From Bacteroidota bacterium (GTDB lineage Bacteria > Bacteroidota > Bacteroidia > Chitinophagales > Chitinophagaceae), in NCBI GenBank assembly GCA_016183765.1, contig JACPEA010000002.1:237832-301831 (forward strand): a DNA stretch of 64,000 bases, in the 5' to 3' direction. The translations under genes and the position numbers were made by a program. Positions within the stretch are counted from its first letter, which is position 1. Each line of letters opens with the position of its first letter. Shown here piece by piece: positions 37,996-54,561 of this stretch. The notes under the pieces were generated by a model. That model ran no database searches. It was not told where the DNA came from and worked only from the letters and a program-made list of their open reading frames with translations.

Positions 37996-38577
37996 ATGAA
38001 AGAAGATATCATTATACAGATCAGTAACCGCCTTCGTGATCTGCGGAAAGAAAAGAATATCACTTTACAGGAACTGGCAGAAGCTGCCGGGGTTTCGAAA
38101 GGAATGCTGAGCCAGGTTGAGAACAGCCGGGCCATCCCTTCCTTGCCGGTGCTGCTGAACCTGATCAGCTCCCTGCACGTTGATTTTAATGATTTTTTCA
38201 AAGATATCAACCTGCTTACCCCCGATAGTAAAGTGATCTTCCGGAAAAAGAACGAGTACCAGCCTTTTGAGAAAGAAAATGCAGAAGGATTCTTCTACCA
38301 ACGTCTTTTTTCCACTACAGTGCATGATTATCATGTGGACTTTGTATTATTACGATTAACCCAAAATGCCCAGCGTTCACCCGTAAGTACCGATGCTTTT
38401 GAGTTCAAATACCTGATCAAAGGCAAAGTCCGTTACCAGATTGGAGAAACTTCTTATGATATGGAAGAGGGAGACTCCCTTTTTTTTGATGCAAGGGAAA
38501 CCCATAACCCCATCAATATCGGCGATACCGATGCCATACTGCTGGTGGTGTACCTGTTTCATGAACGGGTGATCTGA
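37996..38577 (+). CDS. XRE-family HTH regulator with C-terminal cupin sensor
   Basis: LRDLRKEKNITLQELAEAAGVSKGMLSQVENSRAIPSLPVLLNL HTH; cupin C-terminus (YDMEEGDSLFFDARETHNPIN). Confidence 0.93.
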   Translation: MKEDIIIQISNRLRDLRKEKNITLQELAEAAGVSKGMLSQVENSRAIPSLPVLLNLISSLHVDFNDFFKDINLLTPDSKVIFRKKNEYQPFEKENAEGFFYQRLFSTTVHDYHVDFVLLRLTQNAQRSPVSTDAFEFKYLIKGKVRYQIGETSYDMEEGDSLFFDARETHNPINIGDTDAILLVVYLFHERVI

Positions 38578-38605
38578 TAGCTTGTTTACTTAACGAATTG
38601 TTCAC

Positions 38606-38661
38606 AAAAGTTTAATATTAGTCAAAAAAATACCGATAAAACTTGTAAAAGTTTAATATTA
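38606..38661. promoter_or_regulatory. 15-bp direct repeat AAAAGTTTAATATTA (two copies)
   Basis: Exact copies at 38606-38620 and 38647-38661. Confidence 0.6.
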
Positions 38662-38662
38662 C

Positions 38663-38718
38663 TTTACTTTTCCTTAACATAAACAACATTTTTCCTTAAC
38701 ACTGTCCGGATAGTTTTG
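38663..38718 (+). promoter_or_regulatory. Pho-box-like 11-bp-period repeats and -7 element TAGTTTTG upstream of susC
   Basis: TTTACT 38663, TTAACA 38674, TTAACA 38696 (phase 11/22), then TAGTTTTG 38711-38718. Confidence 0.5.
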
Positions 38719-38746: not shown

Positions 38747-41700
38747 ATGAAGCTGAAACACATCCATTACCTGAAACGTTTATTACCACTTGCGGTAATA
38801 CTGTTTCTATCAGGTATACTGCAAGCCCAGTCTTTTCCGGTAAAGGGAAGAGTGATCGATGCGGTTAGTAAAAAACCCATTGAAGGTGCCAGTATCAACC
38901 TTTCGAATGCAAAAACCGCTACCAGTACCGATGCAGACGGACAATTCACGATCAGTGCTGCAAAGAGCAGCCAGCTGTTGATCAGTTCCGTTGGTTTTCA
39001 GACCAAAAAAGTGACTGTGTCCGCTGATGTTTTGACCATCAGCCTGGAAGCTTCAGTGAAACAACTCGATGAAGTAGTGATCACGGCATTGGGTATTAAA
39101 AAAGAAAAGAAGCTGGTAAGTTATGCCACCCAGGAGATCAAGGGAGCAGACCTGATCAAAGCGAGGGAACCCAATCCCATTAACTCGCTGGTAGGTAAAG
39201 TAGCAGGCTTGTCTGTAGGTGCTTCTGCTGAACTGCTGGGTCGCCCGCAGGTATTGCTGCGTGGTTCCAATATTGATTTGTATGTAATCGATGGTATTCC
39301 TATCAACTCGGATACCTGGAACGTTTCTCCTGACGATATCGAAAACATTACCGTACTGAAGGGACCCGTGGCATCTGCTTTATACGGATACCGTGGTCAG
39401 CGTGGTGCTATTATCATTACCACCAAAAAAGGTTCTAAAGACAAACGTGGTTATGCTATTGAGTTTAACAGCAGTACTATGATTGATAAGGGATTCATCG
39501 CCCTGCCCAGAACACAGGACCTTTACGGACCTGGCGACCATGGCAAATATTTATTTGTAGATGGTAAAGGAGGCGGTTTGAACGATGGAGACTACGATAT
39601 CTGGGGCCCTAAATTTGAAGGACAGCTGATACCTCAGTACGATAGCCCGGTGGATCCTGTTACAGGCGTACGTAAGGGAACTCCCTGGGTTGCCAGGGGA
39701 AAAGATAACCTGAAGCGTTATATCCGTACAGGTATACTTACCACCAACAACCTGTCGGTTTCGTCCAGCAATGATAAATATGATATCCGTTTCTCGCTGT
39801 CGCACTCTTACCAGAAAGGTATTGTGCCTAACACACAGCTGAACATCACCAATTTCAACATCAATACCGGTTATCGCTTTAACGATAAACTGAAACTGGA
39901 TGCACAGTTGAATTATAACCGCCAGTACACACCCAATTTCCCGGATGTGAACTATGGTCCCAACAGTATCATCTATAACATGACCCTTTGGGGTGGTGCC
40001 GACTGGAACGTAGATGATATGCGTAACTACTGGCAGCCGGGTAAAGAAGGTGTACAGAGCATTTATGCGGAGTACCAGCGTTACCACAATCCATATTTCA
40101 TGGCATATGAGTGGCTGCGCGGACATTATAAAACCGATGTGTACGGATACGTATCCTTAACACAAAAAATCGGAAATAACACAGAACTGGTAGCCAGAAC
40201 AGCAGTGACCACTTATGACGTTCTGCGTACAGAAAAAATGCCTTTCTCTGCTCACCCTTACGGAAGAGAAGAAGGACGTGGTGATTACCGTGAAGATAAA
40301 CGTAACCTGTTCGAAAACAATACTGAGCTGATGGCCAAGTACAATAACCGTTTTGGACAGATCAGCGTGAACGGTTTTGTGGGTGGTAACGTACGGAATT
40401 TTGCATACAAGTCCAGCTTTGTTACAACCGATTATCTGAATGTGCCAGGTGTGTATTCTTTTGCCAATAGCCGCAATCCTGTTAGAGCGTATAACTTTGG
40501 AAGCGATATGCGTGTGATGAGTGCTTATTACTCGTTTGATGTGTCACTGAGTAAATACTTTAACCTGAATACAACCGGAAGGGTAGATAAACTGTCAACC
40601 CTGAATGAGTCTTACTTCTATCCATCTGTTTCCGGTAATACCATCCTTTCTGATTACCTGGAAATGCCCAAAGCGATCTCTTTTCTGAAAGCCCGTGCAT
40701 CCTATGCTAATGTAAAAAGCGGTGGATCCAGTGTAACTTCCTATATCGGGGCTACTCCTAATGCGGGTTATCCGATGGGTTATGGCGCAGAATATACTTC
40801 TTCGTATGATGGACCTACCTATGGCCTGGCTACTCCGTACAATACTGCCCTTGGATATAACAACCAGCCATATGCTACCTATCCCAATAACCTGATCGAT
40901 CCGGCTATCAGTCCCGACAGCCGTACCACGGTGGAATTGGGTCTGGATATCAAGTTCCTGAAAAACCGTCTGGGCCTGGATATTGCCTATTACACCAATA
41001 TAGACGGTCCGCAGATCTATAACAAACCATTATCCCAGACCACCGGCTACAATTCTTTCATCACCAATGCGGTGAAGAACAAAACAACCGGTATTGAGAT
41101 TTCTATCAGTGGGCAGGCCATCAAGAACAAGGATTTCTCATGGGATGTGTTGCTGAACCTGAGCAAGTATCGCAGAACATTGGCCGAATTGCCTGCAGGT
41201 GTAAATGTATTGAATACGTTTTATGCAAAAGGCGACAGGCTGGATAAAGTATACGGAAGAGGTTTTGTAAGAACTGCCGATGGGCAGCTGATCAATGACG
41301 CAGGTGGCCGACCCATTGTGAATTCAGTAAGCCAGTTCCTGGGATATGCGGATCCGGACCTGGTATGGGGACTGAACAACCGCTTCTCTTACAAAAGCTT
41401 TACGTTTTCTTTCCAGTTCGATGGCCGTATTGGAGGTGTTATGGAAGATTATGTACGTAAACAGTCATTCCGTGGCGGACGTCATATCGAAACCACTGAA
41501 GGAGCAATGGGTGAAGCCCGTTACCAGGATTACCTGGGTGTGAAATCCTATGTAGGTGAAGGTGTTGCAGTGTCTAATGGAGTAGCTATCAAATATGATC
41601 CTGCCACAGGCGCGGTGACCAATTACGGTGATCTTAAGTACGCAACAAATACCACTAAGACCTTCCTGCAGGATTATATCAGCCGTTACTACAATACTTC

Positions 41701-41965
41701 AGAAGGAAATATGATCAGCAAAACCTACCTGAAACTCCGTGAAGTAGTGATTTCCTACAATATCCCTGCGGATATATTTGGTAAAAAAGGAGTTTTCAAA
41801 GCGGCTACAGTTTCGCTGGTGGGACGCAACCTGCTTTACATCATGAAAGATGGTAATCGTTACAAAGATGTGGATATAGACCAGTATGCAGGCGGACAAA
41901 CTTCCTCTAATCTGCAAACGCCTACTACCCGTCGTTATGGTTTCAACTTAAACTTAACTTTCTGA
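38747..41965 (+). CDS. SusC/RagA family TonB-linked outer membrane protein
   Basis: CarboxypepD_reg N-domain, plug domain GRPQVLLRGSNIDLYVIDGIPI, C-terminal GFNLNLTF. Confidence 0.96.
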   Translation: MKLKHIHYLKRLLPLAVILFLSGILQAQSFPVKGRVIDAVSKKPIEGASINLSNAKTATSTDADGQFTISAAKSSQLLISSVGFQTKKVTVSADVLTISLEASVKQLDEVVITALGIKKEKKLVSYATQEIKGADLIKAREPNPINSLVGKVAGLSVGASAELLGRPQVLLRGSNIDLYVIDGIPINSDTWNVSPDDIENITVLKGPVASALYGYRGQRGAIIITTKKGSKDKRGYAIEFNSSTMIDKGFIALPRTQDLYGPGDHGKYLFVDGKGGGLNDGDYDIWGPKFEGQLIPQYDSPVDPVTGVRKGTPWVARGKDNLKRYIRTGILTTNNLSVSSSNDKYDIRFSLSHSYQKGIVPNTQLNITNFNINTGYRFNDKLKLDAQLNYNRQYTPNFPDVNYGPNSIIYNMTLWGGADWNVDDMRNYWQPGKEGVQSIYAEYQRYHNPYFMAYEWLRGHYKTDVYGYVSLTQKIGNNTELVARTAVTTYDVLRTEKMPFSAHPYGREEGRGDYREDKRNLFENNTELMAKYNNRFGQISVNGFVGGNVRNFAYKSSFVTTDYLNVPGVYSFANSRNPVRAYNFGSDMRVMSAYYSFDVSLSKYFNLNTTGRVDKLSTLNESYFYPSVSGNTILSDYLEMPKAISFLKARASYANVKSGGSSVTSYIGATPNAGYPMGYGAEYTSSYDGPTYGLATPYNTALGYNNQPYATYPNNLIDPAISPDSRTTVELGLDIKFLKNRLGLDIAYYTNIDGPQIYNKPLSQTTGYNSFITNAVKNKTTGIEISISGQAIKNKDFSWDVLLNLSKYRRTLAELPAGVNVLNTFYAKGDRLDKVYGRGFVRTADGQLINDAGGRPIVNSVSQFLGYADPDLVWGLNNRFSYKSFTFSFQFDGRIGGVMEDYVRKQSFRGGRHIETTEGAMGEARYQDYLGVKSYVGEGVAVSNGVAIKYDPATGAVTNYGDLKYATNTTKTFLQDYISRYYNTSEGNMISKTYLKLREVVISYNIPADIFGKKGVFKAATVSLVGRNLLYIMKDGNRYKDVDIDQYAGGQTSSNLQTPTTRRYGFNLNLTF

Positions 41966-41984
41966 TCTATTCAAATAAAACAGT

Positions 41985-43544
41985 ATGAAAAAGATAATAA
42001 TCTGTTCATTAATGGCAGCGGTTGCTTTTACTACCGGCTGTACCAAGAAATTTGATGAGCTGAAGATAGATACCAACCGGCCTGAGAGTGTGCCGCCATC
42101 ACTGGTGCTGAGTGGGGTAGAGAATGACTTTACCCAGGGCGCCTGGACACAGACACACCGATGGAACCAGTTCAGCAACTGTAATTACAACTATTATGGC
42201 AACCAGGAATATAACTGGACCAATACATCGTTTAACCCGTACAATACACTGAAGAACATTCTGAAAATGGAGCAGGAAGCTGCCAAGATTGCTGCTGCAC
42301 AGAATCCGTATTCAGCATTGGGTAAATTTTTCCGTGCATTCTTTTATTACGACCTCACCATGCGTGTGGGCGATCTGCCGATGAACGAGGCGGTAAAAGG
42401 CCTGGAAATGAGCACGCCCAAATACAATACCCAAAAGGAAGTGTTCATCCAGGTACTGAAATGGCTGGAAGAGGCCAATGCTGATATGGCTGTATTGATA
42501 ACCGCCGGCGACAGAACCCTGGCTGGTGATTATTACTACAATAATGATCTGAAAAAATGGCAAAAAGCGATAAACGTCTTCAAATTACGCGTGCTGATCG
42601 CTTTAAGCAAAAAAGAGGCTGATACAGACCTGGCCATCAAGCAAAAATTTGCAGCAACCCTGGCTGATGCCGCAAAGTATCCTTTATTTGCCTCTATGTC
42701 AGATAACCTGCAGTATGTGTATAACAGTACATTTAACAAGTATCCTACCAGTCCGGATAATTTTGGTTTCGACGCTACCCGTTATAATACCAGCGCTACT
42801 TACCTGAATAACCTGGTGGCATTGCAGGATCCCCGTACATTCGTTACTGCGGAACCTGCTGCCAAAAGAGTGGCCGGTGGGGCAGCGCCTAATTCATTCG
42901 GCGCATTCCTGGGTGCCAGCAGTGGAGAAGACCTGGCAGATATGAGTTCAAAAGCAAACAATGGAGAGTATTCTTTTATCAACCGTAAACGTTATTACAG
43001 CACGTATACGGCAGAACCCAATATGCAGATCGGCTATCCTGAAATGTGCTTCAATATTGCCGAAGCCATTAACCGCGGATGGATTACCGGTGACGCAGAA
43101 AGCTGGTATAAGAAAGGACTTACGGCTTCCATTGCCTTTTACGGTATCGTAAACGGAAACAATACCGTGTATTTTCAAAAACCAGGCGGTACATTGAACG
43201 ATTACAACACGTACGTGATCAATTACGATGAAAACGCTTATTACAACCAGGCAACGGTGAAATATGCGGGTAATACGGCTGCAGGTCTCAACCAGATCCT
43301 GTTACAGAAATACCTGGCTTATTTCCAGAACAGTGGCTGGGAAGCTTATTATAACTGGAGAAGGACCGGTGTGCCTACTTTCCTTATAGGTCCAGGTACC
43401 GGAAACAGTCAGCGTATCGCCAAACGTTTCCTGTATCCCACATCAGAAAACGCTACCAACAAAACCAACCTGCAGGAAGCGCTGCAACGTCAGTTTACGG
43501 GTGGTGTTGATGATATCAATGCAGATATGTGGGTCATCAAGTAA
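41985..43544 (+). CDS. SusD/RagB family outer-membrane lipoprotein
   Basis: Lipobox MAAVAFTTGCTKKF; immediately after susC; SusD-like TPR fold sequence and YNWRRTGVPTF. Confidence 0.93.
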   Translation: MKKIIICSLMAAVAFTTGCTKKFDELKIDTNRPESVPPSLVLSGVENDFTQGAWTQTHRWNQFSNCNYNYYGNQEYNWTNTSFNPYNTLKNILKMEQEAAKIAAAQNPYSALGKFFRAFFYYDLTMRVGDLPMNEAVKGLEMSTPKYNTQKEVFIQVLKWLEEANADMAVLITAGDRTLAGDYYYNNDLKKWQKAINVFKLRVLIALSKKEADTDLAIKQKFAATLADAAKYPLFASMSDNLQYVYNSTFNKYPTSPDNFGFDATRYNTSATYLNNLVALQDPRTFVTAEPAAKRVAGGAAPNSFGAFLGASSGEDLADMSSKANNGEYSFINRKRYYSTYTAEPNMQIGYPEMCFNIAEAINRGWITGDAESWYKKGLTASIAFYGIVNGNNTVYFQKPGGTLNDYNTYVINYDENAYYNQATVKYAGNTAAGLNQILLQKYLAYFQNSGWEAYYNWRRTGVPTFLIGPGTGNSQRIAKRFLYPTSENATNKTNLQEALQRQFTGGVDDINADMWVIK

Positions 43545-43562
43545 TAGTTGAATTAGCATAGG

Positions 43563-43641
43563 TGCAGTTTTCAAAAGCGGGGCCCTCCGGGGCTTCGCTT
43601 ACCTTATTTCATAAATAGCTGTAGTAAAACCGAAAACTGCA
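43563..43641 (+). promoter_or_regulatory. structured intergenic RNA / attenuator candidate
   Basis: GCGGGGCCC-TCCG-GGGCTTCGC hairpin (43577-43598) nested inside a perfect 10-bp inverted repeat TGCAGTTTTC/GAAAACTGCA. Confidence 0.5.
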
Positions 43642-43690
43642 TGCCTGCTGTTTGTATATTGGCCGGATAAAAGCATTCTTTATACGTTAT

Positions 43691-45721
43691 ATGAAACTGT
43701 TGTCTTTTTTTCTCGTTCCCCTGCTTGCTGCAGGGCAGGATCTTTCTGCACCGGAAAAAGATACCACCGGTTCACTGGTGCCTGTAGTGGTTACCGCAAC
43801 GCGTAAACTGACTGATGGATACCTGCTTCCATATTCGTATGTTGTTATCGACTCACAAACGATCCATCGATCTGGTGCCAGAACCACGCCGGAGTTATTG
43901 ATGGGTACAACAGGTGTGTTTGTGCAAAAGACCAATCATGGTGGCGGCTCGGCATTTGTAAGAGGGCTTACCGGCAACCAGGCATTGATCATGCTCGATG
44001 GGATCCGGTTCAACAATGCCACTTTTCGTTATGGCCCCAATCAATACCTCAACACCATTGACCTGTATACGATCGATAAAATAGAAGTGGTAAAAGGCGC
44101 CGGTTCCGTGCAATATGGATCCGATGCACTGGGTGGCGTGATACAGTTGTTCAGCCGCGACCTGTCTTTCGGTAAAAGATCCTTTCATGCCAAAACCTTT
44201 GCCAAAGCGGTCTCTGCCGATATGGAATATACAGGCAGGGGAGAACTTTCTTACCAGTCGAACGGGTTTGCTTTTTCTGCCGGTTATACCCAGCGCAAGT
44301 TCGGTGACCTGGTTGGAGGTGATACCACCGGCCGGCAAACGCCTTCCGGATACACAGAGCGTGCTTTTGATGCGAAGATGAAGTTCCGCCTGGGGGAGAA
44401 TACTTCTTTGTCGTTTTCTCACCAGTACGTGCGCCAGGAAGATGTGCCCCTGTATCACCGCGTCAAACTGGAGAACTATGCGTATTATTTTTTTGCGCCC
44501 CAGCAACGTTCTCTGACTTACCTGAAACTGGAAACCAAAACAAACCATCGCTGGATGGACCGGGTACACCTGATCCTGTCGGCACAGCAAAGTTTAGAAC
44601 GGAGAAACTACCTGCGTAATGGAAGTGCCAGCCGTTTTTCAGAGGAAGACAAAGTGCGTACACTGGGAGCCAGTCTTGATATAGCTTCTGTATGGAGTAA
44701 ACGATGGTATAGCAACAGCGGTATTGAATATTACCGCGATGCAGTGAATAGTGTCAAGTTTCAGCAACCTCTGGCAGGTACTGCTGTACAAACCCTGCGT
44801 GGCCTGTATCCTGATGGTTCCAGTAACCAGAGCTTTTCCCTGTACAGCCTGCACCACCTGCAGGCCGGTAGGTTCAATATGGAAGGTGGCATTCGCTACA
44901 ATACACTCGCTATCCGTATAACAGATACCAGTAAAACAACGGGTAGTCTGGGAAAAATAACCATACAACCCGCTTCCCTGGTGGTGAATATGGCATTGGG
45001 CTACCAGCTTACCCCAACCTCGCGTTTATATACCGCTTTCAGTACCGGTTACCGGGCACCTAATATCGACGATATGGGAAGTCTGGGGTTGGTTGATTTT
45101 CGTTATGAGGTGCCAGCCTACGGCTTAAGGCCGGAAAAAAGTTACCATACAGAGGTCGGATACCGGTTCAGGAATGAACGGCTATCGGCGTCCGCCGCTG
45201 TTTTTTATATGCACCTTTCAGATCTGATCACACGTGTACAGGTTCCGGGACAACAAGTGAACGGATACAATGTGTACACCAAACAGAACAGCCAGGAATC
45301 TTACCTGAAAGGAGCCGAATTTGAATTCAGATACCTGTTAACAGCTAAACTTACCTGCGAAATGGGGGGCACTTACCTGTTCAGCCAGAACCTGTCGGCC
45401 AACGAACCCATGCGGCGTATCCCGCCCGTGAATGGAAGAGTTATCCTGCGCTACCAGCGCCAGCAATGGTTCGTAGCGGTTGAAAACCTGGCTGCAGGTG
45501 CACAAACAAGACTGGCGCAGGGTGATAAAGACGATAACCGTATTCCGGCAGGAGGAACACCGGGATGGAACCTGGTGAATATGCATGCCGGATATTCTGT
45601 GAAACAGTTGAGGATACAGGCCGGCTTGCAGAATATCGCAAATGTTGATTACCGTACCCACGGAAGTGGTATTAACGGAGCGGGCAGAAATGCCTGGCTC
45701 TCTTTGCAATTCATGTTATAA
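43691..45721 (+). CDS. TonB-dependent receptor
   Basis: Start trimmed to MKLLSFFLVPLLAAGQ; plug GGGSAFVRGLTGNQALIMLDGIRFNNATFRYGPNQYLNTID; C-terminal LSLQFML. Confidence 0.95.
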   Translation: MKLLSFFLVPLLAAGQDLSAPEKDTTGSLVPVVVTATRKLTDGYLLPYSYVVIDSQTIHRSGARTTPELLMGTTGVFVQKTNHGGGSAFVRGLTGNQALIMLDGIRFNNATFRYGPNQYLNTIDLYTIDKIEVVKGAGSVQYGSDALGGVIQLFSRDLSFGKRSFHAKTFAKAVSADMEYTGRGELSYQSNGFAFSAGYTQRKFGDLVGGDTTGRQTPSGYTERAFDAKMKFRLGENTSLSFSHQYVRQEDVPLYHRVKLENYAYYFFAPQQRSLTYLKLETKTNHRWMDRVHLILSAQQSLERRNYLRNGSASRFSEEDKVRTLGASLDIASVWSKRWYSNSGIEYYRDAVNSVKFQQPLAGTAVQTLRGLYPDGSSNQSFSLYSLHHLQAGRFNMEGGIRYNTLAIRITDTSKTTGSLGKITIQPASLVVNMALGYQLTPTSRLYTAFSTGYRAPNIDDMGSLGLVDFRYEVPAYGLRPEKSYHTEVGYRFRNERLSASAAVFYMHLSDLITRVQVPGQQVNGYNVYTKQNSQESYLKGAEFEFRYLLTAKLTCEMGGTYLFSQNLSANEPMRRIPPVNGRVILRYQRQQWFVAVENLAAGAQTRLAQGDKDDNRIPAGGTPGWNLVNMHAGYSVKQLRIQAGLQNIANVDYRTHGSGINGAGRNAWLSLQFML

Positions 45722-45730
45722 ACCTGAACT

Positions 45731-46330
45731 ATGACAATACCTGATCAAGGGATCGATTCTATCGTGGATGAAGTGATTTCACTTTACGAAAGATTTGGCG
45801 GGGAGGATTATATCGGCGAGCCCGTTTCCCAGATAGAACATATGTGCCAGTGCGCGCAGCTGGCAGAAAAGGAAGGGTACGATACGGAAGTGATCCTGGC
45901 TGCTTTTTTTCACGATATTGGTCACTTGTGTGAGCATATCACTGAAGTGGAACTCATGGATGGTTACGGTGTGGTGGATCATGAGAAACTGGGAGCGGAT
46001 TACCTGCAAAAAAAAGGTTTTTCAGAAAAGATCGCCAAACTGGTAGCTTCTCATGTAGCAGCCAAAAGATACCTGACCCGACGGTATCCTGATTATTATG
46101 AACAATTATCACCCGCAAGTAAAGAAACCCTTGTATTCCAGGGTGGGGTGATGACAGAAGAAGAAGCCATCACTTTTGAGTCTGACCCACTGGCAGAATT
46201 GTATATACGGCTGCGCAGATGGGATGAGCAGGCCAAACAAGAACATATCCCGCTACCATCACTTGCACATTACCGGGCATTGATGCAGCAACATTTAACC
46301 GAACAAAGTAAAACGATCGAAAACAGATGA
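45731..46330 (+). CDS. HD-domain protein of phosphonate-degradation type (PhnZ / Phn-HD-like)
   Basis: DYIGEPVSQIEHMCQCAQLAE ... AAFFHDIGHLCEH; YxxE plus HD ligands as in PhnZ-like mixed-valent diiron oxygenases. Confidence 0.82.
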   Translation: MTIPDQGIDSIVDEVISLYERFGGEDYIGEPVSQIEHMCQCAQLAEKEGYDTEVILAAFFHDIGHLCEHITEVELMDGYGVVDHEKLGADYLQKKGFSEKIAKLVASHVAAKRYLTRRYPDYYEQLSPASKETLVFQGGVMTEEEAITFESDPLAELYIRLRRWDEQAKQEHIPLPSLAHYRALMQQHLTEQSKTIENR

Positions 46331-47013
46331 GAACAGCATTAGTTGTATTTGATATTGCAGGAACCACCGTATCCGACAAGGGCAATGTAAACCAGGCGTT
46401 CCGCAATGCACTGGCCGAAGAAAATATCCAGGTCGCAATTGAAGAAGTGAATACCCTGATGGGATACAGAAAAATAGACGCCATTATGCGAATGGTGGTA
46501 AAACATGCACCGCAGCTGACCGGTTCCGGGCAGGAAGAACGGATAAATGCGATCCATAACAGGTTTAACAGCATTATGGTTGATTTTTACCGGAATGATG
46601 CAGCCCTTGAACCACTTCCTTTTGCAGAAGAACTGTTTGCATTGTTACAGGAAAAAGGCATTAAAGTGGCTTTGAATACTGGTTTTACCCGCGTCATTAC
46701 AGACGCCATCCTGCAAAAACTGGGATGGGATAAAGCTGCCTTCATCAACACGGTGATCTGCAGTGATGAAGTTCCCGAAGGCAGGCCACACCCCTATATG
46801 ATCCAATCCATTATGCAACAGCTCGGTATTTCGGATGCCGCTAAAGTGGTAAAAGTGGGCGATACGGAAGTAGATGTGAACGAAGGAAGAAATGCCGGTT
46901 GTGGTTTGGTAGTAGCTGTTACCACCGGTGCCTACACGCGTGAACAGCTTTCTCCCTACCACCCTGATGCGATCATTGATTCATTGCAGGAATTACCTGC
47001 ACTAATTCAATAA
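46327..47013 (+). CDS. phosphonatase-like HAD hydrolase
   Basis: VFDIAGTTVSDKGNVNQAF, MGYRKIDAIM, VGDTEVDVNEGRNAGC; ATGA overlap with the HD gene. Confidence 0.88.
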   Translation: MRTALVVFDIAGTTVSDKGNVNQAFRNALAEENIQVAIEEVNTLMGYRKIDAIMRMVVKHAPQLTGSGQEERINAIHNRFNSIMVDFYRNDAALEPLPFAEELFALLQEKGIKVALNTGFTRVITDAILQKLGWDKAAFINTVICSDEVPEGRPHPYMIQSIMQQLGISDAAKVVKVGDTEVDVNEGRNAGCGLVVAVTTGAYTREQLSPYHPDAIIDSLQELPALIQ

Positions 47014-47016
47014 AAT

Positions 47017-48309
47017 ATGTTTCGTCTTCCTGGAAAAACCGGTGCTGTTTGGCAGAAAGATACCCTTGTGGCATTGTATGCCGCATTGATAACCTTTCTT
47101 ACGTATGCCACTGTATATGCATTTCGCAAACCATTTACAGTAGCTGGTTTTGAGCAGGAGCCCATGGTTTTTGGGATCCATTACAAAGATGCACTGGTGA
47201 TCAGCCAGGTGTTGGGTTACATGATGAGTAAGTTTTACGGTATCCGTTTCATTTCGGAGCTTAAAAAAATAGGTAGGGGAAAGGTCATACTGTTACTGGT
47301 GGCTGTTTCCTGGCTGGCTTTGTTGTTGTTTGCCTGGGTGCCGGCACCCAGGAATGTCGTATTCCTTTTTATCAACGGGTTCCCGCTGGGAATGATCTGG
47401 GGCGTTATCTTTTCTTATGTGGAAGGAAGGAAAGCCACCGACTTCATAGGAGCGGCACTGGCGGTAAGTTTTATCTTTTCTTCCGGTTTCGTAAAATCGG
47501 TGGCCAAATGGCTGCTGATCGACTTCTCTATAACGGACCAGTGGCTGCCTTTTGCTACCGGGCTGGTATTCCTCATCCCGCTCTTGCTGTTCGTGTTTCT
47601 GCTGGAGCGTATTCCGCCGCCGTCGGAGTCGGATATACAATTGAGGGTTTCCCGGGAACCCATGAACCGGCTTGAAAGAAAACAGTTTTTCAGGAAGTTC
47701 AGTACGGGTATTGTATTGCTGATACTGATCTATGTGTTCCTTACCCTGTTCAGGGATATCCGCGATAACTATGCCGCTGATATGTGGAAAGAACTGGGTT
47801 ATGGAAGTCAGCCTTCCGTATTCACCGCAACTGAGATACCCATCACCATTGCCGTGCTGGCCCTGATCAGTAGCATGATGCTGATCAGGAATAACAGAAA
47901 GGCTTTTGTTGTTACACACTGGATCATTGTGGCCGGATTCCTGGTAGCAGGGGTAAGCTCCCTGTTATTTGTATCAGGGATATTACCCCCTTTTGCGTGG
48001 ATGACATGGGTAGGGATGGGGTTATATATGGGGTATATCCCTTTTAACTGTATCCTCTTCGACAGGATGATCGCCACTTTCCGGCAAAGCGGCAACGTGG
48101 GCTTCCTGATGTACCTGGCCGATTCTTTCGGCTACCTGGCCAGTGTGGCAGTCATCGTTTCTAAAACCATTTTCAATCCCAGTTTGTCCTGGACAACTGT
48201 TTACAGCAACGGCGTTATCCTGCTCTCTGTTGCAGGTATTGCTGCCACTTTTTTTGCATTGGGTTATTTCAATAAAAAATATGCTCTCTTATTTAATCAG
48301 CAACTATGA
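47017..48309 (+). CDS. DUF5690 family MFS-like membrane protein
   Basis: 430 aa, ~12 TM; TYATVYAFRKPFTVAGFE, GFPLGMIWGVIFSYVEGRKATDFIGAALAVSF. Confidence 0.88.
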   Translation: MFRLPGKTGAVWQKDTLVALYAALITFLTYATVYAFRKPFTVAGFEQEPMVFGIHYKDALVISQVLGYMMSKFYGIRFISELKKIGRGKVILLLVAVSWLALLLFAWVPAPRNVVFLFINGFPLGMIWGVIFSYVEGRKATDFIGAALAVSFIFSSGFVKSVAKWLLIDFSITDQWLPFATGLVFLIPLLLFVFLLERIPPPSESDIQLRVSREPMNRLERKQFFRKFSTGIVLLILIYVFLTLFRDIRDNYAADMWKELGYGSQPSVFTATEIPITIAVLALISSMMLIRNNRKAFVVTHWIIVAGFLVAGVSSLLFVSGILPPFAWMTWVGMGLYMGYIPFNCILFDRMIATFRQSGNVGFLMYLADSFGYLASVAVIVSKTIFNPSLSWTTVYSNGVILLSVAGIAATFFALGYFNKKYALLFNQQL

Positions 48310-49433
48310 AGCAGCAATCAGCCATCGTGATCGGGGCCGGTATTGTGGGATTGGCCACAGCCAGGGCACTTGCCTTACAGGGATATGGTGTAACCGTGAT
48401 CGAACGAACAGAAAAAGCCATTGGGGCGTCTATCCGAAATTTTGGTATGGTATGGCCCATTGGGCAACCCGATGGAAAATTATACAACCGTGCTTTGCGA
48501 AGCCGGCAGATATGGAAGGAGATCGCAGACAGCATCGGCCTTTGGTACGAAGAAGCTGGTAGCCTGCACGTAGCCACCGAAACAGATGAATGGCAGGTAT
48601 TGCAGGAGTTGCACCATCATTTCTCCGGTAATGGAAGAAATACGCAACTGTTATCGACGGAGCAGATCAGCCAAAAATTTTCCGGCATACAGACACAGAG
48701 ATTGCTGGGCGGTTTGTACAGCGATACCGAACTGATTGTAGACCCCCGCGAAGCCATCTCGTCTATACCCGCTTACCTGGAAGAATATTTAGACGTAACT
48801 TTTCTCTGGCAAAAACAGGTGAACCGGGTAGAAACCGACCGGGTATACCTTGGGCAGCAGGTACTGCAGGCAGACCTCATATGCATTTGCAGCGGCGCCG
48901 ATTTTGAGACCCTGTATCCTGAAATATTCGCAAACACAGACATTACCAGGTGTAAACTGCAGATGTTGCGTTATCTTTCGGATAAGGCAGATCAACGTAT
49001 CGGCACTTCGGTATGTGGTGGTTTGTCGCTGATCCATTATCATAGTTTTCAGTCGGCACCCTCATTACCCGCACTGAAAAAAAGATATGAAACAGAAATG
49101 ACCGAATACCTGAAATGGGGTATCCATGTCATGGTTTCGCAAAACAGCGGGGGAGAACTGACCGTTGGTGACTCACATGAATATGGACACACGCTGGATC
49201 CATTTGACCGGGCAGAAATCAATCGGCTGATCATGGATTATTTGGACCGATTTATGATCACTGAGGACTGGAAACTGGTACAGTCATGGAATGGCATCTA
49301 CCCCAAAATGACAAATGGACAAACAGAAGTACTGCTGAATCCCGAGCCGGGAGTATATATCCTGAATGGTTTGGGTGGGGCAGGTATGACACTTTCTTTC
49401 GGATTGGCAGAAGAGTTTGCTGCCGGTCTCTGA
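48306..49433 (+). CDS. FAD-dependent oxidoreductase, TIGR03364-like (phosphonate cluster associated)
   Basis: AIVIGAGIVGLATARALALQGYGVTVIERTEKAIGASIRNFGMVWPIGQPDG; NGLGGAGMTLSFGLAEE; ATGA overlap with DUF5690 gene. Confidence 0.9.
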   Translation: MKQQSAIVIGAGIVGLATARALALQGYGVTVIERTEKAIGASIRNFGMVWPIGQPDGKLYNRALRSRQIWKEIADSIGLWYEEAGSLHVATETDEWQVLQELHHHFSGNGRNTQLLSTEQISQKFSGIQTQRLLGGLYSDTELIVDPREAISSIPAYLEEYLDVTFLWQKQVNRVETDRVYLGQQVLQADLICICSGADFETLYPEIFANTDITRCKLQMLRYLSDKADQRIGTSVCGGLSLIHYHSFQSAPSLPALKKRYETEMTEYLKWGIHVMVSQNSGGELTVGDSHEYGHTLDPFDRAEINRLIMDYLDRFMITEDWKLVQSWNGIYPKMTNGQTEVLLNPEPGVYILNGLGGAGMTLSFGLAEEFAAGL

Positions 49434-49460
49434 TTAATGGATCATTTTATAATCCCGAAT

Positions 49461-51896
49461 ATGAAAAAAATAAGTTTTGTTGTAATGGTCTGTTGTTTTG
49501 CAGTTATCCGTCTGCATGCACAAAGTCTTGCCTCTTTGGAGGCAAAGAGGATCGGTCTTCCCAATGGCTGGAGCCTGACACCGGTAGGCAAGTCGTTACC
49601 GTTGGGTGACCTGCCGTTGAACATGGCCGTTTCGCCTTCCCAAAAATTACTGGCCGTAACCAATAACGGGCAAAGTAAACACAGTCTGCAATTGATCGAT
49701 GTGGTTACTGAAAAAGTACTGGACCATCTGGAACTGCCCAAAGCCTGGGTAGGACTGGAGTTCAGTTTGGATAACAGGTTCCTGTACGTATCTGGCGGCA
49801 ATGATAACCGTATCTGGAAATATGCAGTCGGTAACCGGAAGTTTTTGCTGGCAGACAGTATTGTGTTAGGCAAAGCCTGGCCTGAAAAGATTTCACCTAC
49901 CGGGCTGACCATCGATCAAGATAAACAAGTCATGTATGTGGTTACCAAAGACAATAACCGTTTGTACGTGATCGACCTGGTAACCAAACAGGTCAAAAAA
50001 GAACTGGCATTGCCCGGTGAAGCGTACACCTGCCGCCTCTCGCCTGATAAAAAGGAGTTGTACATCTCTTGCTGGGGCTGCTCCAGGATATTGATATATG
50101 GCGTAACAGAGCATATGATCCTGTCGGAGATTGCGGTGGGCAGTAATCCCAACGATTTCTGCATTACCGCCAACGGGCGTTGGTTGTATGTGGCTAATGC
50201 CAACGATAATTCCGTATCGGTGATCGATACCAAACAGCGTAAAGTGGCGGAAACACTCAATGCGGCCCTGTATCCTGATGCGCCTACGGGTTCCACTACC
50301 AATGGCGTGGCCCTGAGCAGTGATGAAAAAACGCTGTACATCGCCAATGCCGATAATAACTGCCTGGCGGTATATGATGTGAGTCAGAAAGGAAGCAGTG
50401 TGTCGAAAGGATATATTCCTGTGGGTTGGTATCCTACTGCCGTAAAGACCATCGGCTCTAAAATATATGTGACAAACGGAAAGGGTTTTACCTCGCAGGC
50501 CAACCCGTTTGGTCCTAATCCCATCAGTAAGAAGATTCAGCTTGGTTTTCAGAAAGGAGATACTTCCAAACCCAGGGAAGTGCAATACATCGGCGGCCTG
50601 TTTAAAGGAACCCTGAGCATATTGCCAGTTCCTTCGGCCAGCCAGTTGAGCGTGTATTCGCAGGCGGTTTACCGGAATTCACCTTACAGTAAAACCAGGG
50701 AACTGGTGTCGCATGATGCTATCGGCAACCCCATCCCCCGGAAAGTGGGAGATTCTTCTCCCATTAAATATGTGTTTTACATCATCAAGGAAAACCGTAC
50801 CTACGACCAGGTATTGGGCGATATGCCCGAAGGCAACGGGGATAGTTCGCTTTGTTTGTTCGGAAGAAAAATAACTCCCAACCAGCATGCATTGGCCAAA
50901 GAGTTTGTATTGCTGGATAATTTCTATGTTGACGGAGAGGTCAGCGCCGATGGCCATAACTGGAGCATGGGCGCTTACGCTACGGATTACCTGGAAAAAA
51001 CCTGGGTGACCAGTTATGGTGGCCGCGGAGGTAATTATGATGCGGAAGGTAACCGCGCCATCGCCAACAACAAAAATGGTTTTATCTGGGATCATTGCAA
51101 ACGGGCCGGTGTAAGTTACCGGACCTACGGTGAGTTCGCCGATGATTACAAGCCCAATATCCCGGTATTACAGGATCATTTTTGCCCGTATTACACCAGC
51201 TGGGATGAAAGCGTACGCGATACAACCCGCGTAGGTCAATGGAAAAGGGATTTTGATTCATTGCTTGCCAACAATGCCTTGCCCAGGTTAAGCACCCTGC
51301 GCCTGATCAACGATCATACCGAGGGACTGCGTTTGGGAAGACCAACACCTTTTGCCCATGTGGCGGATAACGACCTGTCGGTTGGTATGTTTGTAGAATA
51401 CCTGAGCAAAAGCCCTATCTGGAAAGAAAGCGTGGTATTCATCCTGGAAGATGATGCACAGGATGGCCCCGATCATGTAGATGCACACAGGAGTCCGGCT
51501 TATGTGGCAGGAGGTCTGGTGAAAAGGGGATTTGTGGATCATACCATGTATTCCACTTCGTCCATGCTGCGAACCATTGAACTGATACTGGGTATCCCAC
51601 CCATGAGCCAGTACGATGCGGCAGCCACACCCATGTGGCGCTGTTTTACCAATGAAGTGAACCTGACACCATTTACAGCAAGACCAGCAGGAGTGGACCT
51701 GAACGAAAAAAATACCGGAATGAATGAATGGCAGCGGAAAAGTGAAGCTTTTGATTTTTCAAAAGAAGACCGTATTCCGGACCGCGCATTTACAGAAGTG
51801 ATCTGGAAAGCGGTAAAAGGATTGGATGCGGTTGTGCCTGCACCTAAAAGAGCCGCTTTTGTAAAACTGAATACGAAAGACAGGGATGGAGATTAA
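49461..51896 (+). CDS. bifunctional YncE-like beta-propeller / alkaline phosphatase superfamily protein
   Basis: N-terminal 7-bladed propeller repeats (LYVANANDNSVSVIDTKQRKVAETL) and C-terminal phosphoesterase (IKENRTYDQVLGDMPEGNGDS, FILEDDAQDGPDHVDAHRSPAYV). Confidence 0.9.
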   Translation: MKKISFVVMVCCFAVIRLHAQSLASLEAKRIGLPNGWSLTPVGKSLPLGDLPLNMAVSPSQKLLAVTNNGQSKHSLQLIDVVTEKVLDHLELPKAWVGLEFSLDNRFLYVSGGNDNRIWKYAVGNRKFLLADSIVLGKAWPEKISPTGLTIDQDKQVMYVVTKDNNRLYVIDLVTKQVKKELALPGEAYTCRLSPDKKELYISCWGCSRILIYGVTEHMILSEIAVGSNPNDFCITANGRWLYVANANDNSVSVIDTKQRKVAETLNAALYPDAPTGSTTNGVALSSDEKTLYIANADNNCLAVYDVSQKGSSVSKGYIPVGWYPTAVKTIGSKIYVTNGKGFTSQANPFGPNPISKKIQLGFQKGDTSKPREVQYIGGLFKGTLSILPVPSASQLSVYSQAVYRNSPYSKTRELVSHDAIGNPIPRKVGDSSPIKYVFYIIKENRTYDQVLGDMPEGNGDSSLCLFGRKITPNQHALAKEFVLLDNFYVDGEVSADGHNWSMGAYATDYLEKTWVTSYGGRGGNYDAEGNRAIANNKNGFIWDHCKRAGVSYRTYGEFADDYKPNIPVLQDHFCPYYTSWDESVRDTTRVGQWKRDFDSLLANNALPRLSTLRLINDHTEGLRLGRPTPFAHVADNDLSVGMFVEYLSKSPIWKESVVFILEDDAQDGPDHVDAHRSPAYVAGGLVKRGFVDHTMYSTSSMLRTIELILGIPPMSQYDAAATPMWRCFTNEVNLTPFTARPAGVDLNEKNTGMNEWQRKSEAFDFSKEDRIPDRAFTEVIWKAVKGLDAVVPAPKRAAFVKLNTKDRDGD

Positions 51897-51934: not shown

Positions 51935-51975
51935 AAGAGGGGGCGCATTTACAGATGCGCCCCCCTCTTCTTTTT
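51935..51975 (+). terminator. strong (bidirectional-looking) intrinsic terminator
   Basis: AAGAGGGGGCGCAT-ttacag-ATGCGCCCCCCTCTT followed by T-rich tract, 38 nt after the stop. Confidence 0.85.
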
Positions 51976-52017: not shown

Positions 52018-52794
52018 TTACCGTGGGTGACTGGTTTCAGTGGTGGTCAGGATATTATTTTTCCGCCAGATCAGGTTCCAGAAACAATCCTGGTATTTTT
52101 TATTCACTTCCCAGAAACCGTTGGCCTGGTAACGGCGTGATGAGGATGGCTGTACCAGTGAAGGCAGGTAGGCAATTGTTCCGAATTGGGTTAATTGTTT
52201 GCCCAGATCAATGTCATCGCCATAAAAGGTTAAATCAGTATTGTAACCACCGGCTTTTTCCAGAACCGAAGCGTGCACAAATGCATTACCACCAATCAGG
52301 ATGGCGGCTCTGCCGGCAATTTGTGCCAGATTACTGATCAATGGATAGGTTAGCTGTTGCGAAAGCAGCGAGAAAAAACGCATTTGCGGGTTGCCATCAA
52401 AATAATCATAAGGGCCTGTCACGGCAACGCGATGGGGATGCTGCAATAATGCCCTTACCCCTTTGCGCAACCAGCTCGAAGCAGGAACACAATCAGCATC
52501 CAGCTGCGCAATGATGTCACCCGTAGCCAGCTTTCGTGCAGCTTCCCTGGCAAAATTCGTTCCCTTTTGTTCCTCGCAGACCATTCGGATGGGTGGAATA
52601 CCTGTTGCCGGCTGCCTGTCGATCAACTGTTGTATCAGTAATGCAGTCTGGTCGGTAGAAGCATTGTTGGCTACAATAACTTCATAATCAGGATAATCCT
52701 GCGCAAGTATCGCTGTCAGTGTGCGATAGATGTATTTTTCTTCATTGTAAGCAGGTATCAACACCGATACTTTGGGAAGGCTGGCTTTTTTCAT
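52018..52794 (-). CDS. glycosyltransferase family 2
   Basis: VSVLIPAYNEEKYIYRTLTAILAQDYPDYEVIVANNASTDQT; QLDADCVP. Confidence 0.92.
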   Translation of the reverse strand: MKKASLPKVSVLIPAYNEEKYIYRTLTAILAQDYPDYEVIVANNASTDQTALLIQQLIDRQPATGIPPIRMVCEEQKGTNFAREAARKLATGDIIAQLDADCVPASSWLRKGVRALLQHPHRVAVTGPYDYFDGNPQMRFFSLLSQQLTYPLISNLAQIAGRAAILIGGNAFVHASVLEKAGGYNTDLTFYGDDIDLGKQLTQFGTIAYLPSLVQPSSSRRYQANGFWEVNKKYQDCFWNLIWRKNNILTTTETSHPR

Positions 52795-52856
52795 AAATGA
52801 TCATTCTGGTATGAAATAACTAATCGTATGTTACCTGGGTATATCCTTTTGTTAAG

Positions 52857-52906
52857 TTCATAGTAGCTTAACCTTTCGATAACTTTTGCTTAACCCGTTG
52901 TTCATG
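52857..52906. promoter_or_regulatory. Pho-box-like 11-bp-period direct repeats in divergent GT2 / phosphatase intergenic region
   Basis: TTCATA 52857, TTAACC 52868, ATAACT 52879, TTAACC 52890, TTCATG 52901: five units in exact 11-bp phase. Confidence 0.5.
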
Positions 52907-52948
52907 TTGCGGATATAGTGACAGGGTTTCTTTGTAAAACCCTTTGGC

Positions 52949-54073
52949 ATGAAACCCGTTATCGTAGTCTTATTTTGTCTTTTGGGTGTACGCTCCGTTG
53001 CCCAGTCTGCTGCTCCCCGTAATGTCTTTATCATTACCACCGATGGTTTCCGCTGGCAGGAAGTATTCCGGGGAGCCGATTCATTACTGATCAGGGATAC
53101 GGCCTGTGTAAAAGACACAACCCTGCTCTGTCAGCAGTTCTGGAGCGACGATCCGGAAGAGAGAAAACGTAAGTTGCTTCCCTTTTTCTGGAATGTGATA
53201 GCACAGAAAGGCAGGTTATCAGGTAACCGCAGTTATGGCAGCGAAGTAAATGTGGCCAACCTGTACAAAATATCATATCCGGGATACAATGAAATACTTA
53301 CGGGGTATGCCGATACACGTTTCATTCCCAATCTTACCGTTCGCAACCGAAATACCAATATCCTGGAGTACCTGAATACTACGGAAATATATGCCGGTAA
53401 AGTAGTCGCATTCAGTTCCTGGAACCTGATGCCTTATATCCTGGCAGAGAACAGGAGTGGTTTACCGGTGAACAGTGGCTACGAAATGCTGGAAGAGGGA
53501 GATGACACATTGAATATTCTGATTAACGAAGTGCAGAAAAATGTAGTGCATAAGGGCAATACCCGCCAGGACCTGCTAACCTATGCCAGTGCCAAAAATT
53601 ACATTGAGCAGCAACATCCCAAAGTGGTTTTTCTGGGTTTGGGCGAAACGGATGAATATGCGCACAAAGGGCATTACGACCAGTACCTGCAAAAAGCCCA
53701 CCAGGTAGACAGAATGCTGGCTGAACTGTGGTACTATGTTCAAACAGATCCTTTTTATAAAGACAATACGGTGTTCCTGATCACGACCGACCACGGAAGG
53801 GGCAGCAAAAGAAACAAGTGGAGACAGCATGGTTTCTGGGTGAAAGGCTCAGGCGAGGCCTGGATGGCCATGATTGGTGCGGGCATTGCTTCTGAAGGTG
53901 AAATAAAAACAGAAGAGCGTTTGTACCAGAAGCAGATCGCTTCTACCGTTTCGTTGTTGTTGAATGAGAAGTTCGAAGCACCCGATCATACGGTGGCCGA
54001 ACCACTGAAACTAATCACGAACGCGGTAGCGGCTGGGCAACAGCATTCCAAAACTGTTTCAGTAAATAAATAA
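52949..54073 (+). CDS. secreted alkaline phosphatase superfamily (phosphoglyceromutase/sulfatase-like) protein
   Basis: Signal peptide; NVFIITTDGFRWQEVFRGAD, LGETDEYAHKGHYDQYLQ, FLITTDHGRG metal-binding motifs. Confidence 0.9.
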   Translation: MKPVIVVLFCLLGVRSVAQSAAPRNVFIITTDGFRWQEVFRGADSLLIRDTACVKDTTLLCQQFWSDDPEERKRKLLPFFWNVIAQKGRLSGNRSYGSEVNVANLYKISYPGYNEILTGYADTRFIPNLTVRNRNTNILEYLNTTEIYAGKVVAFSSWNLMPYILAENRSGLPVNSGYEMLEEGDDTLNILINEVQKNVVHKGNTRQDLLTYASAKNYIEQQHPKVVFLGLGETDEYAHKGHYDQYLQKAHQVDRMLAELWYYVQTDPFYKDNTVFLITTDHGRGSKRNKWRQHGFWVKGSGEAWMAMIGAGIASEGEIKTEERLYQKQIASTVSLLLNEKFEAPDHTVAEPLKLITNAVAAGQQHSKTVSVNK

Positions 54074-54075
54074 TC

Positions 54076-54561
54076 ATGGAGGAAATACTCGTCAACTATT
54101 TTGTCGTGTATGGCTACCTGGCCGTTTTTGCCGTGGTATTACTGCAGGAACTGGGTATGCCGGGGCTTCCTAATGAATTGGTGCTATTGTATTTTGGTCA
54201 CCTGAGCCGTCAGGCGGGGCTTTCGTATCCACTGGTAATTGCGCTGGTGGTAGTGGCCGATATGCTGGGTTCTGTCATTCTTTATTTACTGTTTTATTAT
54301 GGACGCACCTGGTTGGTGCAGATAAAACCGAGGTGGGTGAAGTTGCCGGAGAAAAAAGTCTTTTCCCTCAAGCAAAAAATGGCATCGGGCAGGGGGCGGC
54401 CCATTTTTATTGCCAAGCTCACTCCTTTTGTACGCAGTTATATTCCGGTAGTGGCGGGTTTGTTACAGGTAGAGCCTGCTTTATATGGCCGTATCATCGT
54501 GGTTACCGCTATCATCTGGAGTGGGGGATGGGTTACCGCCGGCTGGTTGCTGTATTTTTAA
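54076..54561 (+). CDS. DedA/VTT family membrane protein
   Basis: 161 aa; LQELGMPGLPNELVLL, KLTPFVRSYIPVVAGLLQ. Confidence 0.9.
   Translation: MEEILVNYFVVYGYLAVFAVVLLQELGMPGLPNELVLLYFGHLSRQAGLSYPLVIALVVVADMLGSVILYLLFYYGRTWLVQIKPRWVKLPEKKVFSLKQKMASGRGRPIFIAKLTPFVRSYIPVVAGLLQVEPALYGRIIVVTAIIWSGGWVTAGWLLYF

Follow-up and report, generated by a model that had tools for sequence, protein, structure and literature searches.

The repeat array and its gene neighbourhood

The window (the whole 64-kb stretch of DNA analysed) belongs to a genome placed in a Chitinophagaceae genus that includes a contig of Sediminibacterium magnilacihabitans (L069), and carries on its forward strand, at 52855-52909, an array of five 11-bp units that we read as a putative Pho box. 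The TMAY cores of the array are TCAT at 52858, TAAC at 52869, 52880 and 52891, and TCAT at 52902, and the exact 11-bp phase claimed in the earlier note, with TTCATA, TTAACC, ATAACT, TTAACC and TTCATG starting respectively at 52857, 52868, 52879, 52890 and 52901, was confirmed. Downstream lies the presumed controlled gene, encoding a secreted enzyme of the alkaline phosphatase superfamily (374 aa; 52949-54073, forward strand), followed after 2 bp by a presumably co-transcribed gene for a DedA/VTT-domain membrane protein (54076-54561, forward strand). A GT2 glycosyltransferase gene (52018-52794, reverse strand) is divergent, and the array does not point towards it.

The phosphatase has no close relative in the PDB by sequence; its structural model (pLDDT 85) matches the folds of LtaS, YejM, NPP, PafA and sulfatases with E-values of about 1e-8 to 1e-10, and all the metal ligands are present and invariant (T31, D32, D235, H239, D281, H282, and H294). 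By modelled fold and metal-ligand motifs the product is a member of the alkaline phosphatase superfamily, with a predicted phosphomonoesterase activity. In several relatives (L097-L100, L109-L122) the phosphatase gene is part of the phosphonate operon or adjoins it. In G106, the nearest neighbour, a phosphonate operon 85-95% identical to that of the window is kept, while the best phosphatase match reaches only 44%, and the phosphatase unit therefore appears to be an optional or mobile module; the corresponding stretch of G106 (L319, contig C29) contains no match to the GT2, phosphatase or DedA genes. A phosphatase of Chitinophagaceae type, 57% identical, was also found on a contig labelled Beijerinckiaceae (L077), a label that is probably a binning error.

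The second promoter of interest precedes susC, the first gene of a transcription unit that spans 38747-51896 on the forward strand, no gap between its genes exceeding 107 bp. The unit opens with a SusC-SusD-type outer membrane pair (38747-43544) and a TonB-dependent receptor (43652-45721), and continues with a PhnZ-type HD oxygenase (45731-46330; TIGR03276 over cut-off; PDB 4n71, E 9e-51), a PhnX-like HAD hydrolase (46327-47013; TIGR03351 at 207.9 bits, just under the 218.9 cut-off), an MFS-like transporter (DUF5690; 47017-48309), a PbfD-type member of the FAD-dependent aminophosphonate oxidase family (48306-49433; TIGR03364 over cut-off) and a protein with beta-propeller and phosphoesterase domains (49437-51896). 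PbfD1, another TIGR03364 member, oxidises both N-methyl-AEP and AEP (PMC10590968). As predicted from its gene content, the susC operon is a phosphonate-scavenging system; no PhnW was noted among its genes. A bidirectional terminator-like hairpin (51938-51965) separates it from the GT2 gene, and directly upstream of susC an HTH-cupin regulator is encoded (37996-38577), a possible local phosphonate sensor whose gene adjoins susC also in L099, L319 and L320.

The putative Pho box of the susC promoter (38661-38704, forward strand) comprises about four 11-bp units, with cores TTAC at 38664, TAAC at 38675, ACAT at 38686 and TAAC at 38697. The 22-bp spacing between CTTAAC motifs, which the earlier note had described as identical at the two promoters, is indeed the same (52867/52889 and 38673/38695). 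Further upstream of susC stands a second array of three units, TTAAC/TTCAC/TTAAT (38588-38620, forward strand), whose phase does not match that of the -7 element; the relative G083 has a similar array.

Within the window, scanning for TMAY arrays with periods of 7-15 returned the array at 52857 as the only five-unit array on the forward strand, and one five-unit run, of period 7, on the reverse strand. CTTAAC-N16-CTTAAC without mismatch occurs at two sites in the 3.67-Mb genome, i.e., the phosphatase and susC promoters, against about 0.08 expected genome-wide from the CTTAAC frequency of the window. With one mismatch allowed the pattern is at background (11 genome sites vs. 18 for the reversed control), and the true unit is therefore the 11-bp repeat rather than the 22-bp pair. 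The four-unit TMAY pattern gave 15 matches in the whole genome vs. 1 for the reversed control; once overlaps are joined these form nine sites, at least two of which are simple tandem repeats (C11:213.9k, C16:358.1k).

Similarity to pst promoters, conservation and geometry

A family search of the host genome returned neither Pst (PstB) nor PhoU over curated cut-offs, and the pst operons serving as an independent yardstick were therefore taken from other genera of Chitinophagaceae, using the region upstream of the porin-pstS start. Three- to five-unit arrays such as GTTAACATTAAGGTAACATTCCGGTAACATTGGGGTCAT were found at 22 pst loci in the forward orientation and at 1 in the reverse. The position matrix, built from 79 units of 20 pst loci and including none from the genus of the window, identified 52855-52909 as the best five-unit site in the window (29.9 bits; maximum 6.9 bits in 40 Markov-simulated copies of the window). 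When four units were used, the phosphatase array scored 23.3 and 23.1 bits; next came the susC promoter with 16.9 (null mean 3.5, maximum 15.1 bits). Only two of the 28 intergenic regions tested in the window exceeded 6 bits, those upstream of the phosphatase (20.2) and of susC (17.5). The suggestion that the array is shared with the divergent GT2 gene was not supported: the score is 20.2 toward the phosphatase and 3.8 toward GT2, and an adjacent GT2 orthologue occurs in two related loci only (L062, L066). With a score of only 3.8, the GT2 gene was rejected as a target. A scan for sigma-70 promoters gave matches near chance only.

Conservation of the repeats in relatives, the check proposed with the original observation, was borne out. 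In the regions preceding 39 phosphatase homologues (mostly from Chitinophagaceae, at 45-79% identity) we counted 46 TAAY pairs at 11 bp (1.8 expected) and 19 at 22 bp (1.9 expected), as compared to 1 and 1 on the reverse strand, and the matrix score was higher than 10 in the forward orientation at 32 of the 39 loci and in the reverse at 4. The L106 and L107 phosphatase loci (45-50% identity) keep the box, and the culturable relative Sediminibacterium magnilacihabitans DSM 22423 (L069) also has it before its phosphatase gene. The box precedes susC in 16 of the 17 genus members examined, 13 of them at shuffle p < 0.01, and outside the genus it was found, with at least 16.7 bits, at nine of ten phosphonate-locus susC orthologues belonging to Terrimonas, Emticicia and other Cytophagaceae, the exception being Arcicella rosea (L114, 7.7 bits); more distant SusC homologues gave mixed matrix results. 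Of 30 genus members, 29 likewise have the box before a PlcP-like metallophosphatase gene, and none has it there in the reverse orientation. Among distant relatives of the phosphatase (40-46% identity; Flavobacterium, Arcicella, and others) the pst matrix detected no box in most, and three Flavobacterium PhoX promoters showed no array. Conservation thus tracks the orthologue group and is not something that AT-rich promoters have in general.

The position of the units relative to the promoter is also constrained. We assigned the presumed -7 elements from the published Bacteroidota consensus (TAnnTTTG type) and from conservation: GTTTCTTTG for the phosphatase (52926-52934, with TTTG at 52931-52934 and 14 bases between its end and the ATG) and TAGTTTTG for susC (38711-38718, following the last TAAC core at a distance of 18 bp), both on the forward strand. 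In the pst promoters, TAAY/TCAY cores precede the TTTG of a -7 element of the same type by 18, 29, 40, and 51 bp, and one of the 11 phases holds 64 of the 86 cores within range in pst promoters and 93 of 132 in phosphatase orthologues. Both window promoters fall in this majority phase, with TAAC cores 18+11k bases upstream of TTTG: counted from TTTG at 38715, susC has TAAC at -18 and -40 and TTAC at -51, and counted from TTTG at 52931, the phosphatase has TCAT at -29, TAAC at -40, -51, and -62, and TCAT at -73. The nearest unit of susC occupies the standard -18, whereas in the phosphatase promoter this position is degenerate (ATAT, 52913-52916, forward strand, 18 bp upstream of TTTG); many orthologues have TTAC, TTAT or ATAC there. 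The 29 orthologous phosphatase promoters with a TTTG-nnAA-nC anchor align to the window without gaps, their cores standing in columns. TTTG-nnAAACC is kept in the phosphatase orthologues, in most of which it ends about 10-15 bases before the ATG, a short distance that probably reflects a very short leader.

A candidate PhoB regulon and its rivals

The genome encodes six regulators of the OmpR family, one of which, on contig C1 at about 95 kb, is of PhoB type: PhoB is its best NCBIfam match, although at 227.5 bits it is formally below the equivalog cut-off of 296.2. Among the six, the recognition-helix sequence DRTIDVHIRKVR occurs in this protein alone; the helix is presumably PhoB-like, as judged by the contact residues of the E. 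coli PhoB-DNA structure. A gene for a PhoR/PnpS-like kinase follows, and in the run at about 91.9-95.8 kb (L251) phoB-phoR precedes genes for a PhoU-related DUF47 protein and for a PiT phosphate transporter; with Pst and PhoU missing from the genome over cut-offs, PhoR would signal without Pst.

Other genes of the genome carry the same box. A seven-unit array precedes a PlcP-like metallophosphatase gene that is paired with a glycosyltransferase gene (contig C15, about 157 kb; L245 2933-4940), the kind of PlcP-glycosyltransferase arrangement described for phosphorus starvation (PMC4796936). The original observation had suggested that GT2, DedA and the phosphatase would fit phosphate-saving envelope or lipid remodelling. 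As the theme of this locus it is not supported, since the phosphatase of relatives is placed within phosphonate operons or next to them, and the PlcP-like/glycosyltransferase pair stands elsewhere, on C15 with its own box; a PlcP-type phospholipase with a lipid glycosyltransferase under a box was not found within the window. Because of the box before that pair, envelope remodelling is nevertheless probably under the same control, outside the window. Boxes also stand before a PhyH-family dioxygenase gene (contig C16, about 514.9 kb; L247 5418-6292), two outer-membrane receptor (SusC/TonB) genes on C10 and a SusC gene on C15. The dioxygenase is a possible PhnY partner for the PhnZ encoded in the window; examined as PhnY, it gave weak structural relatives only (MysH). 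An additional five-unit array on C15 (about 295.6 kb; L246 4076-4130) has no downstream same-strand gene of at least 90 aa, and is possibly linked to a small RNA or a short gene, or else an unused box.

Same-strand direct repeats of 11 bp, their occurrence before pst and plcP genes, conservation in orthologues, the match to pst promoters, the geometry to the -7 element and the presence of PhoB and PhoR in the genome all point to the single PhoB-like regulator that had been suggested for the promoters of 52949 and susC. It is very probable that the array is a Pho box and that PhoB activates both the phosphatase-DedA unit and the susC operon within one scavenging regulon; co-control of the two promoters by PhoB is very likely. 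We infer the following course. Phosphate starvation would lead to phosphorylated PhoB, dimers of which would bind head-to-tail on successive 11-bp units along one DNA face, at a constant helical phase relative to the -7 element of Bacteroidota, and bring RNA polymerase to the promoter of the phosphatase-DedA unit. The like arrangement upstream of susC would turn on the operon for phosphonate import and breakdown, and together the two units would form one regulon for scavenging phosphonate and organic phosphorus, the presumed substrates.

That the repeats arose by chance has practically no likelihood left: single motif units are common and the one-mismatch CTTAAC pattern is at background, but conservation refutes this explanation, as do the matrix scores, the phase and the gap-free promoter alignment. 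The array is also AT-rich and helically phased, as would be expected of A/T tracts acting through DNA curvature or in the manner of an UP element with no specific regulator; we consider this very improbable, as the TAAY/TCAY cores are base-specific, confined to one strand (46 pairs vs. 1 in reverse) and common to unrelated genes. A phased operator might, on the other hand, be real and yet serve another OmpR-family member or a local factor such as the HTH-cupin protein, responding to phosphonate and not to phosphate. The six OmpR-family regulators and the HTH-cupin gene next to susC, here and in three other loci, offer candidates for such a role; the same box, however, stands before pst operons and the PlcP-like gene without any phosphonate context, the PhoB-type recognition helix is found in one regulator only, and the explanation appears improbable.

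A looser regulon would result if PhoB activated the phosphatase gene but merely modulated susC, the main control of which would then belong to a phosphonate-sensing HTH-cupin protein. The susC box is indeed the weaker one (16.9 vs. 23.3 bits over four units), and a second, out-of-phase array lies upstream of it. Against this, the susC box shares the phase and is kept in Emticicia, and its closest unit, unlike that of the phosphatase box, occupies the standard -18, which makes such a division of control possible but rather unlikely. Joint activation of both units by PhoB is the reading we retain.

A wider generalisation can be offered tentatively, at somewhat less than even chances: Chitinophagia and Cytophagia may use a Pho-box code of three to seven TAAC/TCAC units, spaced by 11 bp and placed at -18-11k from the -7 element, and in this genome, without Pst and PhoU over cut-offs, the DUF47 protein and the PiT transporter next to PhoBR would assume the signalling of phosphate and drive a regulon built around SusCD-type capture of phosphonates. 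Since distant phosphatases and Flavobacterium PhoX genes show no such box, the code may not hold phylum-wide. It would be readable for a large part of Bacteroidota, so that genes under phosphate control whose function is unknown (SusCD pairs, TonB receptors, lipoproteins) could be listed from sequence alone. For freshwater and soil bacteria it would also connect SusCD-type capture with a PhoB-controlled use of phosphonates, and it raises the question of how phosphate is sensed by PhoR in a genome without Pst and PhoU.

Relation to known Pho boxes and phosphonate systems

The array is best described as a predicted variant of the known Pho box; in the open-access literature we found no published Pho-box sequence for Bacteroidota. 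The E. coli Pho box consists of 11-bp direct repeats (PMC3978041), and as in that system the repeats of the window are arranged head-to-tail upstream of the promoter and accompanied by a regulator of PhoB class. The E. coli box has, however, a TGTCA-type core in two units and is joined to a sigma-70 -10, whereas here three to seven units with a TAAC/TCAC core are combined with the Bacteroidota TAnnTTTG -7 element. The cyanobacterial SphR box, CTTAACCT plus a 3-bp linker in three repeats (PMC1906773), is nearly the unit of the window, which reads CTTAACCT-ttc-GATAACTT-ttg-CTTAACCC; it differs in phylum and promoter element, and the array described here has more units and the fixed -18-11k phase. 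Within the same phylum, PhoB of Bacteroides fragilis binds its own pst promoter (PMC3547664); we found no box sequence defined for this PhoRB system.

In Flavobacterium, low phosphate induces SusCD-type loci with phosphonate genes (PusCD) as well as the pf01676 phosphatase Fjoh_2225 (PMC8115612). The SusCD pair of the window is similarly co-located with a phosphatase and phosphonate enzymes, and its induction is predicted from the box. The text of the PusCD paper mentions no Pho box or promoter, and in the promoters of Flavobacterium PhoX and phosphatase genes, unlike those of the window, the box is undetected by the present matrix. The enzymes of the operon also recall the clusters for AEP and N-methyl-AEP (PbfD, PhnX) and the oxidative PhnZ route (PMC10590968), with PhnZ, a PhnX-like hydrolase and a PbfD-family oxidase encoded in one operon, which, in contrast to those clusters, is headed by a SusCD pair and a TonB receptor.
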